A stretch of DNA of 51,928 bases from positions 1 through 51,928 of the forward strand of contig JAAXOC010000009.1 of NCBI GenBank assembly GCA_014237145.1. The letters run 5' to 3'. The position numbers and the translations under genes were made by a program. The DNA is from ANME-2 cluster archaeon. Lineage in GTDB: Archaea > Halobacteriota > Methanosarcinia > Methanosarcinales > Methanocomedenaceae. This document shows positions 2,500 to 11,089 of this stretch, piece after piece. The first letter of the stretch is position 1; the number at the start of each line of letters is the position of its first letter. The notes under the pieces were generated by a model. It did not search any database, had not been told where the DNA came from, and saw nothing but the letters and a program-made list of their open reading frames with translations.

Positions 2500-2960
2500 T
2501 ATAAGTTATATATTTTAACTGTCGTGGTTTCACTCTCGTCAGACCCACCAACACCCGTGGCTTGCGCCCGCATCGCAGAGCATCCGGGCGCAGGCTGTGG
2601 GGTTGAGCGGGAAGGGCGGCTGGGTGAGTGCAGGAGCAGCGAGCCAAATGAAGATGGTAGGCGGCAGCAGAGCGAAATAAGGCGTGGGGGATGGGGTCAT
2701 TTCAATATTAGCACCGAGAGCATAGAGGACACAGAGAAAAGCAACAAGGCGCTGTGCACTCTGTGTGCTCTGTGGCTTAAAAATCAGATAAATTATATAT
2801 TTCAACAGCCATGCCCTCCACCGGCAGCACCAACCAACACCCGCACGCCGTCTGCAGCGATGTCTGGCTGGGGCGGACGTGTGTTGCAAGTGGTGGCTGG
2901 ACGGTGCATCCATCAGCGGGCGTTCCATACCGGGCACATTTAGCGTGCATAGAGAAGCGC
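2500..2960. repeat. Composite dispersed repeat, copy B (two units)
   Basis: No credible gene lies between 2416 and 3139. The order is AT-rich module (AAGTTATATATTTTAACTG, about 2503), GC-rich module (GGGCGCAGGCTGTGGGGTTG, about 2589), a CACAGAG-type inverted repeat (GAGGACACAGAG at about 2725 pairing with CTGTGTGCTCTGTGGC at about 2761-2776), then a second AT-rich module (AAATTATATATTTCAACAG) and GC-rich DNA to about 2960. Frames opened here are low-complexity Ala/Pro/Arg translations of the repeat. Confidence 0.75.
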
Positions 2961-7582: not shown

Positions 7583-8278
7583 ATGCTCAAAGTTGAAAAT
7601 GTCAATGTTTCCTACGGTTCTGTCAAGATACTATGGGATGTGGACTTCCACATCGGTGAAGGAGAGATCATCACAATTATCGGTCCGAACGGTGCAGGCA
7701 AGACCACCATTGTCAAGACCATAATGGGACTGCTCAAACCCACATCAGGTACTATCGAATTCAATGGAAACCCAATCCATCTGGCACCCACCCACAAGAT
7801 CGTAGAAGATGGCATCGCCCTTGTACCAGAAGGAAGAGAACTGTTCCCAAGGATGACCATAATGGAAAACCTGCAAATGGGAGCATACACCTCAGATGAA
7901 AAGGAAGATACACTGAAATCGGTGTTCAACCTGTTCCCCAGGCTGGAAGAACGACAGAAACAGTCTGCCGGTACTATGAGCGGCGGTGAGCAGCAGATGC
8001 TGGCCATAGCCAGGGGTCTTATGTCACGTCCCAAACTATTGATACTGGATGAACCCTCACTGGGACTGGCACCGATAATGGTCAAAACAGTGTTCGATAT
8101 AGTCAAGACCCTGAACAGTGAAGGCGTGACCGTGCTGCTGGTGGAACAGAATATCCATCACGCACTGGAAGCATCAAATAGGGGATACGTGCTTGAGACC
8201 GGGCGCATCACCCTTGAAGGGTCAAGCAGTGAACTGCTTGACAATAACCATGTCAAAGAGGCATATCTCGGGATGTAG
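7583..8278 (+). CDS. livF: LivF, branched-chain amino acid ABC transporter ATPase
   Basis: A 231-residue ATPase energising import of branched-chain or related amino acids at the inner face of the membrane. It has Walker A GPNGAGKT (34-41), signature MSGGEQQ (132-138), Walker B LLILDEP (152-158) and the switch His in VLLVEQNIHHAL. The length is standard and the frame intact. It follows livG by 11 bp; the permease genes livM and livH and binding protein livK lie 1.8 kb away on the other strand. Its last 81 bp are duplicated at 10006-10086. Confidence 0.93.
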   Translation: MLKVENVNVSYGSVKILWDVDFHIGEGEIITIIGPNGAGKTTIVKTIMGLLKPTSGTIEFNGNPIHLAPTHKIVEDGIALVPEGRELFPRMTIMENLQMGAYTSDEKEDTLKSVFNLFPRLEERQKQSAGTMSGGEQQMLAIARGLMSRPKLLILDEPSLGLAPIMVKTVFDIVKTLNSEGVTVLLVEQNIHHALEASNRGYVLETGRITLEGSSSELLDNNHVKEAYLGM

Positions 8279-8297
8279 TGCCCGCAACTTTATCAGT
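8198..8297 (+). repeat. 100-bp exact duplication, copy 1 (3' end of livF)
   Basis: Bases 8198-8297 are identical to 10006-10105. The repeat starts at ACCGGGCGCA inside livF and runs past its stop into what is, in copy 2, the 3' end of livM. The two copies bracket an 1808-bp period that contains repeat copies D and E and a nucleotidyltransferase gene pair. Confidence 0.95.
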
Positions 8298-8309
8298 GAT
8301 TTTTTTTCA

Positions 8310-8530
8310 CAAAGGATGCTCTGCGAACCTCTGCGGTTTAATATATTACATCGATTATATAGTTTAATAGCCATGGGGGTCCCTCCACTGCACTCACCAC
8401 TCCCCGAGGCCGCCGCACGCATGCAGAACACCCGTGCGCCGTCTGCCGCAGTGTTTGGCTGGGACGGGTGCGGTTTGTCTAGATCATAGGGGAGAGCAGA
8501 GGGGCCAGCGGGAGATAAAATGCAACGAAA
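8310..8530. repeat. Composite dispersed repeat, copy D
   Basis: The gene-free gap 8279-8571 holds a CTCTGCGAACCTCTGCGGTT run, the AT-rich module (TTATATAGTTTAATAGCCATG, about 8355), and a GC-rich module with CGAGGCCGCCGCACGCATGC and CGCCGTCTGCCGCAGTGTTT. It matches parts of copies B and C but lacks the GGGCGCAGGCTGTGGGG core. No gene is supported here. Confidence 0.65.
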
Positions 8531-8571
8531 GGACGCTGGGAGTCATTCTATTTTGAGAGATGGATTTCGTG

Positions 8572-8766
8572 TTATTTTTTAAGTGATTTTAAATACTTTT
8601 CTGGTGAAAATGGATAGTTGACTGCATTTTCAAATAAACTGTTGAGAAAGTCCGTTTGCTGTTTACTCCATACTTCATTTGGTACGGATTTGACCCATCG
8701 GCTGTAGAAACGTACAAATTCAAGTCTTTCTTTTAGGTTTTGCTTTTTATCAAAATTCGATTCCAT
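8572..8766 (-). CDS. Small partner protein of the nucleotidyltransferase
   Basis: A 64-residue basic protein beginning MESNFDKKQNLKERLEFVRF, with two aromatic helices (FYSRWVKSVPNEVW and FLNSLFENAVNYPFSPEKYL). No family is named with confidence. It overlaps the 3' end of the nucleotidyltransferase-like gene by 17 bp, so the two are translated as a pair, the layout of AbiE-like and other nucleotidyltransferase toxin-antitoxin modules. A role as toxin or antitoxin subunit is inferred from context only. Confidence 0.65.
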   Translation of the reverse strand: MESNFDKKQNLKERLEFVRFYSRWVKSVPNEVWSKQQTDFLNSLFENAVNYPFSPEKYLKSLKK

Positions 8767-9349
8767 AATTGCTACCTTCTACTTTAAGAAGATCCATATA
8801 GTGTTTCAATTTTTCTTTGTTTAGATGTTCACCAAATAATTCATATAAATAAACGGCATCTTCTATATCTTTATCACTGCCTAAATAAAGCTTGAAAGGT
8901 ATCTGGATTTCCAGAGGTGAAATGTTTATACTATCTCGATCGATTTTTACTTCCATATGCTTTTGTAAAGAGTCTTTATCTATTCTGTTTTTAGTAAATT
9001 TGATCTCGATATTTGGAATAACAGTATCCTGTATGGCAGCTCTGATTGCAAGTTTGTCATTAAGCATTCCATATAACTCTAAAGGATTTTCGGCATTTAA
9101 AAACCAATATTTCTTTTGGCGTAATTCGTCATTAAGCTGTTTGAACTTTTTGAAATCAATTTTTTCAATAAATATATCGATATCTTCCGTTCCCCTGGAT
9201 CTTCCGAAGAGTATAGAAACATAACCACTTACAATAACATAATCTGTATATTTTTCCAGAATTTTGATAAAGTCTATAACAAAAAGGTCCAGCTTGGAAA
9301 CCACTTTATTTCTTAGAAAAACATATTTTCCTTCTATTTCAAGTTCCAT
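8750..9349 (-). CDS. Nucleotidyltransferase-fold protein (AbiEii-like)
   Basis: A 199-residue protein with a nucleotidyltransferase core: DYVIVSGYVSILFGRSRGTEDIDIFIE carries the GS-like turn and the paired Asp residues of the DxD metal site near residues 50-75. The C-terminal part (SPLEIQIPFKLYLGSDKDIEDAVYLYELF) matches the pattern of bacterial and archaeal NTase proteins linked to toxin-antitoxin or abortive-infection systems. Start at 9349 has a GGATAAGG ribosome-binding site; the longer frame to 9409 has none. It lies inside the block flanked by the 100-bp duplication. Confidence 0.75.
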   Translation of the reverse strand: MELEIEGKYVFLRNKVVSKLDLFVIDFIKILEKYTDYVIVSGYVSILFGRSRGTEDIDIFIEKIDFKKFKQLNDELRQKKYWFLNAENPLELYGMLNDKLAIRAAIQDTVIPNIEIKFTKNRIDKDSLQKHMEVKIDRDSINISPLEIQIPFKLYLGSDKDIEDAVYLYELFGEHLNKEKLKHYMDLLKVEGSNYGIEF

Positions 9350-9554
9350 ATTATTTACCTTATCCTTAATTTGTAAATTAGAACTATCCCAATTCCATTG
9401 CTTCTTCAATTGGCATTTTTTTGAATTATCCGTTTATTGGAAACAAATTTGCTTATGTTTATGTTTTTTCATATACTGTTATTACTTAGGAACTACTTTA
9501 CTTCTTTTTATATATAATCATAGGCACCATATATGCCTGTTGTATTGCTAACCG

Positions 9555-10005
9555 GGCCACAAGTTGTTACTCAATGTTCCTACTGGTAAGTGCGTGTAGA
9601 ATACTAAAGGTGAAGTAAAGCATCTGGGTGCAGGAATCAGCGACAAGCAGGGGGGCATAAGAGCCTAAGAATGAACTAACGAGGGGGGGAATTAGTTCAA
9701 TACTAACTGCAGAGAGTCATAGAGAAAAGCAAAAATGCTCTGTGCACTCCGTGTCCTCTGTGGCTTAAGAATTACGAGACCGTCACATTACATGTTGGTA
9801 TTATCAAACTAACCGCAGACGAACGCAGATAAACGCGGATACGCTACCTGAAAATCTGTGTTCATCTGTGTTTATCTGTGGTTTAATTAAATTCACCAAC
9901 ACGAATTGTAACGGTCTCAGAATTACACAAACTATATATTTTAACCACCATGTCACCACCGGCAGCCCTCACCACCACCCAAGGCCGCCGCCTGCATACA
10001 AAGCA
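9555..10005. repeat. Composite dispersed repeat, copy E, interrupted by a MITE
   Basis: The gap 9350-10060 has no gene. From about 9610 it has a degraded GC-rich module, a CACAGAG inverted repeat (9710-9768: GAGAGTCATAGAGAAAAGC with CTCTGTGCACTCCGTGTCC), the AT-rich module (AAACTATATATTTTAACCAC, about 9929) and a GC-rich module to 10005, where it joins the livF duplicate. Copy B shows the CACAGAG and AT-rich modules directly adjacent, whereas here a 143-bp element lies between them. Confidence 0.7.
9776..9918. mobile_element. 143-bp MITE-like element with 8-bp target duplication
   Basis: The element starts GAGACCGTCACATTAC and ends in the inverted equivalent GTAACGGTCTC; the terminal 24 bp pair with 20 matches. 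AGAATTAC lies directly outside both ends (9768-9775 and 9919-9926). The inside is a nested hairpin of CGCAGAT-type repeats (9811-9840 with 9854-9884). Repeat copy B at 2770-2810 has the same flanking modules without this element and serves as a related empty site. It has no coding capacity. Confidence 0.8.
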
Positions 10006-10105
10006 ACCGGGCGCATCACCCTTGAAGGGTCAAGCAGTGAACTGCTTGACAATAACCATGTCAAAGAGGCATATCTCGGGATGTAGTGCCCGCAACTTTA
10101 TCAGT
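10006..10105 (+). repeat. 100-bp exact duplication, copy 2 (livF tail overlapping livM)
   Basis: Identical to 8198-8297. It contains the last 81 bp of livF including the stop at 10084-10086, then the sequence antisense to the last codons of livM. This copy therefore preserves what looks like the ancestral arrangement, with livF and livM converging and overlapping by 26 bp. The left junction lies at the 10-bp ACCGGGCGCA shared by the dispersed repeat and livF. Confidence 0.95.
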
Positions 10106-11089
10106 AATCTTTTTTATTAGCGGCATCAAGCCCTTAGGCAGGAACAGAATCTCAAGAACCAGTATCACACCAAGGATAAGCAGACGGTCAATGCTCATAC
10201 CCCACAATCCCATCTGTTCCCATAGAATATTTATTACCAGTGCACCTATGACGGGACCGCCTATTGTCCCGATTCCCCCGCTTATTGTCATAATAATAGG
10301 CATAAAGGAATTATGTATGCTGAATATCTCAGGGTTGATGAAATAATTGTAAGGAGCGAACAGTGCTCCTGCAAATCCTGCCATAAACGTACTGATCATG
10401 AACGCTATCAGCTTATACCGTGTGATATCCACACCCATCATGCCAGCTTCGGCCTGGTTCTCCCTGATAGCCGCAAAGGCAAACCCGATCTTTGACCTGA
10501 TCACCAGGTGAGATGCCAGTATTGTTCCTACCATAGCGAAGAAGAACAGGTAATAATATTGGGCTCTTGACACAATGTCAGGTGAATATATTCCAAGACT
10601 GCCGCCAAGCATATGTGGGTCCATGCTGCCTGATAGACCCACTGCAATAAGTACACCATTTATTGCCTCGATAAAAACTGATAACTCATTTACCACAGCA
10701 GCCATTATTATAGCAAAACCGAATGTGACAAGCCCCAGGAACCATTCTTTTAACCTGACACAAATAATACCTAAGAACAATCCCACCATTGACGCAGCCA
10801 GTGCGCCGGTCAACACTCCCAACACTGGTGTTACACCGTTTATAATAAGGATGGTGGAAGCAAAGCCCCCTATACCAAGAAAAGCCGCATGTCCCAGGGA
10901 TGCCTGTCCTGAATATGCCAGCAGGTTCCAGCTTGTTGAGAACATGATATAGAAAAACGTGAGTATTATTATCCTGTTATAGAAATCGTCAGTTATCACC
11001 AGTGGCAGTGCCAGCCCGATCATCACCAGTAATAAGTATGCTGAGTATGAGGAAACTGCATATTTGCTAACCAGTTCTCTAACAGTCAT
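10061..11089 (-). CDS. livM: LivM, branched-chain amino acid ABC transporter permease
   Basis: A 342-residue polytopic permease with about ten hydrophobic helices and the LivM signatures YSGQASLGHAAFLGIGGFAS (about 58-78) and FAAIRENQAEAGMMGVD, the cytoplasmic EAA-like loop contacting the ATPase. The C-terminal nine residues (GTTSRDMPL) are encoded opposite the livF tail. A GGAAC sequence sits upstream of the ATG, inside the end of livH. It follows livH by one base and is probably in one transcript livK-livH-livM. Confidence 0.92.
   Translation of the reverse strand: MTVRELVSKYAVSSYSAYLLLVMIGLALPLVITDDFYNRIIILTFFYIMFSTSWNLLAYSGQASLGHAAFLGIGGFASTILIINGVTPVLGVLTGALAASMVGLFLGIICVRLKEWFLGLVTFGFAIIMAAVVNELSVFIEAINGVLIAVGLSGSMDPHMLGGSLGIYSPDIVSRAQYYYLFFFAMVGTILASHLVIRSKIGFAFAAIRENQAEAGMMGVDITRYKLIAFMISTFMAGFAGALFAPYNYFINPEIFSIHNSFMPIIMTISGGIGTIGGPVIGALVINILWEQMGLWGMSIDRLLILGVILVLEILFLPKGLMPLIKKITDKVAGTTSRDMPL

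Follow-up and report, generated by a model that had tools for sequence, protein, structure and literature searches.

The window (the whole stretch of 51,928 nucleotides analyzed here) is contig C9 of a 2.97-Mb host genome in 118 contigs. At 9776-9918 it carries a 143-bp element with no open frame of note, set within copy A of a dispersed repeat, of which the left part occupies 9709-9767 and the right part 9927-10005 (both on the plus strand). The element is flanked by two copies of the 8-bp sequence AGAATTAC, at 9768-9775 and 9919-9926. The first of its terminal inverted repeats (GAGACCGTCACATTACATGTTGGT; 9776-9799, plus strand) is of the type seen at the right ends of an insertion sequence (IS) in related genomes, and the second (the reverse complement of GAGACCGTTACAATTCGTGTTGGT; 9895-9918, minus strand) is of the left-end type of the same IS. 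A central hairpin core (CCGCAGACGAACGCAGATAAACGC, a loop, and TCTGTGTTCATCTGTGTTTATCTGTGG) lies between them at 9810-9885. The single strand is predicted to fold into one long hairpin (-28 kcal/mol, z = -5.3), and Rfam and tRNA scans of the window gave no match.

An earlier note on this DNA had described a 143-bp MITE with 24-bp ends pairing at 20 of 24 positions and an 8-bp target duplication. Both descriptions hold. The pairing of the 24-nt ends was reached by none of 200,000 shuffles, and nowhere else in the window do ends at that spacing pair at 18/24 or better. Across the window, only two positions show 8/8 direct repeats spaced 143 apart.

The Insertion Locus

The joined flanks of the element align to a second copy of the dispersed repeat, copy B (2720-2856, plus strand), with no gap at the junction and 79% identity (110/139). 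They also match diverged copies in the sister genomes G005, G002, and G003, which are paralogous empty sites; the copy on G005 contig C133 reads TGTGGCTTAAAAATTAC and then runs directly into the AT-rich stretch. Copy B had been taken for the pre-insertion state. It does lack the element, but its target 8-mer is AAAATCAG, compared with AGAATTAC at the element, so it is a diverged paralogous empty site rather than the ancestral form of the 9776-9918 locus.

Compared with G002 and G006, the window carries an extra 1.7 kb (8309-10005) that contains the MITE. On one side of this segment is an ABC-transporter ATPase gene and on the other livM; in both relatives the two genes adjoin. The true locus of the window MITE is a lineage-specific insert. 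Because G002 and G006 lack the whole segment, neither has an orthologous empty site for the window insertion; the search for the empty junction that the note had proposed thus yielded paralogous sites but no orthologous one. A 110-bp direct repeat (108/110 identical; 8199-8308 and 10006-10115) brackets the 1.7-kb segment.

Copies and Target-Site Duplications

In the host genome, 25 matches to the element are roughly 96 nt or longer, and about 19 of these are full-length. Identity is 99% or higher for nine copies and 86%-94% for most of the rest, so that many dispersed, near-identical copies are present. A 198-bp cousin with the same ends and another interior occurs three times, each time with a perfect 8-bp duplication. 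Matches at E ≤ 1e-12 were found in 17 of 60 relatives, a few of them covering the core only. Of the 17 named hits, 16 are Methanosarcinales/ANME-2 records, ANME-2 cluster MAGs included; the other, a Stahlbacteria match (L188), lies on a 3-kb low-coverage contig whose binning we distrust. These records, together with kinship to the relatives, suggest that the host genome lies on the ANME-2 side. Viral contigs searched with the MITE pattern gave no match.

Target duplications were surveyed in 48 distinct elements of the host and related genomes, comprising the 143-bp type, a ∼133-bp type, and longer cousins. A perfect 8-bp duplication flanks 27 of them and a 7/8 match four more, and perfect duplications of 6, 7, 9, or 10 bp are absent from the set. 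The targets follow a symmetric GWWWWWWC pattern, with G favored at position 1, an AT-rich middle, and C favored at position 8. In the host genome, perfect duplications surround eleven 143-bp copies.

About eight full-length host copies lack a perfect duplication, some of which are explained by exchanged flanks or contig breaks. Some copies without a duplication have a flank in common with another copy; the right flank of L010, for instance, matches the left flank of L025 (TTACAGTC). Such swaps point to recombination between copies or to exchange during assembly. It could be argued more broadly that the copies and their swapped flanks are artifacts of a draft, probably metagenome-assembled genome, several of whose 118 contigs end inside a MITE copy and in which the L010 and L025 flanks look exchanged. 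This is very improbable, however, given the perfect 8-bp duplications at the eleven 143-bp and all three 198-bp host copies and the occurrence of the same family in independent assemblies.

Other arrangements were also observed. At L004:1501-1794 (host contig C111), a tandem MITE pair has a single GTTTTTTT target between its members, as if the same site had been hit twice. At the end of host contig C115 (L057:2277-2777), an apparent group II intron starts ∼17 bp within a MITE arm; this contig end was considered as an autonomous IS and rejected, since it looks like an intron inserted at that point. The outer flanks at the ends of contigs C115 and C82 match as an 8-bp duplication (TTATTTTC). A 2215-bp element in a relative (L140:1989-4203; G047 contig C6) has the same terminal repeats and a perfect 8-bp duplication, GTTCCACC. 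It holds two cargo genes (a T4SS-pilin-like protein of 392 aa and one of 235 aa without a Pfam match) and no transposase, and resembles a mobile insertion cassette.

Empty Sites in Related Genomes

For 14 insertions, the two flanks were fused around a single target copy, and the resulting sequence was used to search 20 genomes. Gap-free empty sites at a single target copy were found for L003 (in G001), L005 (G005, G020), L007 (G004, G005, and more distant genomes), L011 (G002, G003), L012 (G002, G005), and the 198-bp L036 (G002). The joined flanks of L001 span the junction in G006 with one single-base gap, which brings the insertions with empty sites in relatives to seven, all of them other than the window copy. 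For L017, the joined flanks match a paralogous copy in the host genome, again with one single-base gap. The L007 copy (L007:1073-1215; host contig C54) splits an apparent type I restriction subunit gene, which we take from its sequence to be hsdR and which is intact in relatives. Both halves match the uninterrupted G004 protein at 92%-93%.

The long hairpin, the position of the element inside a dispersed repeat, and the existence of core-like pieces without MITE ends might suggest a REP- or BIME-like palindromic spacer that spread with that repeat and not as a transposon. This reading is contradicted by the empty sites: the copies sit at unrelated sites with 8-bp duplications, the orthologous sites are gap-free, one of them in hsdR, and the dispersed repeat itself occurs without the element. 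We consider a spacer highly unlikely. The ∼19 full-length copies, the 8-bp duplications at most intact copies, and the seven orthologous empty sites instead establish the mobility that the note had claimed, through insertions other than the one in the window. The element at 9776-9918 is thus confirmed as a real MITE that spread recently to some twenty sites of an ANME-2-type archaeal genome. It conforms to a MITE on every feature tested, namely its size and lack of a transposase gene (short, <∼600 bp), inverted repeats, fixed duplication, copies, empty sites, and partner.

A Candidate Autonomous Partner

When the 60 relatives were searched with the 198-bp cousin, G022 was found to contain a 1415-bp element that has GTGACCGTTACATTACATGTTGG ends and an open frame of 401 aa. 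The left end of this IS is identical to the MITE at 31 of 34 nt, and the right-end type of the MITE matches the right ends of the IS copies L131 and L133 as well as the transposase remnants L153 and L154. The L133 copy shows the same difference between its ends as the MITE, with AATTCGTGTTGGTGAAT on the left and ATTACxTGTTGGT on the right. In the family members G010 and G013, transposase fragments (79%-83% identical) adjoin GAGACCGTTACATTACATGTTGG and GAGACCGTTACATTATATGTTGG, the end type of the MITE, and the right-type end GAGACCGTTACATTACATGTTGGT, or one base different, stands beside these fragments. Transposase remnants with GAGACCGT ends are thus present in two members of the family. Complete IS copies begin with GTGACCGT or TTGACCGT; a complete IS with GAGACCGT ends was not recovered in the relatives searched. 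The two complete copies in G022 are not bordered by matching 8-bp sequences. The left flank of one is found again, for at least 60 bp, at a truncated copy, which makes a rearrangement of the region likely.

The agreement of both the left- and the right-specific ends, together with the remnants that carry the MITE end type beside the transposase, indicates that the 1415-bp IS of related Methanosarcinales is the likely autonomous partner. The search for a transposase with matching terminal repeats, which the note had suggested, was accordingly successful in relatives and not in the host genome. No transposase of the partner type was found there at E ≤ 1e-8, nor any IS256 transposase by Pfam. The best weak match (1.3e-5) belongs to another IS with non-matching ends, and the transposase on C2 was rejected as a partner, its ends being GGAGACTTTTTATTA.

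The affiliation of the partner transposase is intermediate. Its best curated model is ISL3 (E 4e-11; residues 43-317 of 401), but with 42.6 bits against a cut-off of 180 it falls outside the family as that model defines it. ISL3 elements typically generate 8-bp duplications. Like IS256/Mutator transposases, the protein passes Pfam Transposase_mut (22.8 bits, cut-off 21), and its closest annotated plasmid match is the IS256-like ISCni1 (30%). The NCBIfam IS256 model aligns over the catalytic region with E 1.8e-9, at 37.1 bits against a cut-off of 150. Unlike that group, it has a cysteine-rich N terminus (DUF6431, just below cut-off) before the catalytic domain. In view of the weak ISL3 and IS256 model scores and the Transposase_mut match just above cut-off, the enzyme is weakly ISL3/IS256-like and is predicted to be DDE-type.

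A Hairpin Core Common to Two MITE Families

The interior of the MITE (9810-9885) is absent from both complete IS copies. The same core, ∼82% identical, occurs in elements of a second family of ∼143-157 bp, with ends GAGACTTTTTATTATTTTCTGGT and variants of GAGTCTTTTTAATTTTTTCTGGT. Two core-bearing copies of this family have perfect 8-bp duplications (ACCAATAC at L249 and GGATATCC at L251), and other elements with second-family ends also show 8-bp duplications. The second family thus resembles the first in its core, size, and duplication, but its ends match a different IS256-like group, found at several of L161-L172 in Methanosarcinaceae-like genomes and at L244 in the host. Transposases of this group are ∼26%-30% identical to those of the first over 160 residues. 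An intact-looking IS with second-family ends is present in the host genome at L244:812-2541.

One element, L254 (G005 contig C101), is a hybrid that has the left end of the first family, the right end of the second, and the common core, and lacks a target duplication. This structure is as would be expected for recombination through the core; a chimeric contig is the alternative. Core copies in family f5 of the order (L260, L261, L262, L267, L272) have flanks of neither MITE family. Several of these f5 copies have flank sequences in common, possibly a third end-set. Half-core pieces were found in a Thiodictyon plasmid and in a viral contig, so at least part of the core is older or more widespread than these MITEs.

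These observations qualify the proposal that the CGCAGAT-type hairpin is a mobile unit. The element at 9776-9918 is mobile, but its hairpin cannot simply be equated with the mobile unit: the core is also present in a second MITE family that has different ends, and parts of it are found beyond MITEs altogether. The 74-bp hairpin could be an independent module that came to be enclosed by the ends of two or more different IS groups, with MITEs built by end-swapping and L254 as a core-recombination intermediate; we give this even chances.

Discussion

With very high confidence, the best overall explanation is that the element at 9776-9918 belongs to a MITE family of ANME-2-type Methanosarcinales that is probably moved by the transposase of the 1.4-kb IS. 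The copies, 8-bp duplications, orthologous empty sites, and shared ends are direct observations; from them we infer the action of the transposase. The predicted DDE transposase of the IS (GTGACCGT/GAGACCGT ends), a Mutator-like enzyme intermediate between ISL3 and IS256, would recognize the left- and right-type terminal repeats, excise or copy the MITE, and insert it at AT-rich GWWWWWWC targets that are cut with an 8-bp stagger. The MITE would have kept both distinct ends of the IS and lost the transposase gene, with the unrelated 74-bp hairpin core in its place. As the transposase was not found in the host genome, the IS behind the recent burst probably was lost afterward, is missing from the assembly, or came from another lineage.

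The same absence, set beside nine copies at least 99% identical and hence a recent source, could mean that another, undetected element with the same ends mobilizes the MITE in place of the GTGACC/GAGACC insertion sequence. We regard this as improbable, though less so than the spacer or assembly explanations, since that IS agrees with the left- and right-specific ends of the MITE for 24-34 nt, and its transposase lies next to remnants ending in GAGACCGT in two members of the family.

Archaeal MITEs have been reviewed (PMC10969869), and several derive from Methanosarcina insertion sequences, such as the ISMac21/ISL3-associated 179-bp MITE of M. acetivorans (PMC3852290, Table 4). According to that paper, archaeal MITEs usually resemble their partner IS at the ends only. 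The present element is like the Methanosarcina MITEs in being short and without a gene, in its IS-like terminal repeats and short direct repeats, in its several to tens of copies, and in a partner similarity confined to the ends (PMC3852290). It differs in its host family, the comparison with ISMac21 and its MITE being one of descriptions only. A shared hairpin core is not described in the section on these MITEs (PMC3852290). The literal repeat sequences of the element had no match in the literature searched, and within that limited literature the MITE family and its partner appear undescribed. The unusual part of the finding is the hairpin core common to both families.

For uncultured ANME-2-type archaea, these results provide a well-documented, recently active MITE with a candidate partner, and its insertion sites, such as the broken hsdR, can be used for tracing strains. 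Because one core is present in two MITE families whose IS ends differ, the origin of MITE interiors becomes directly testable. If the hairpin is indeed an independent module, MITE families in these archaea would arise by end swaps around a common core and not only by internal deletion.
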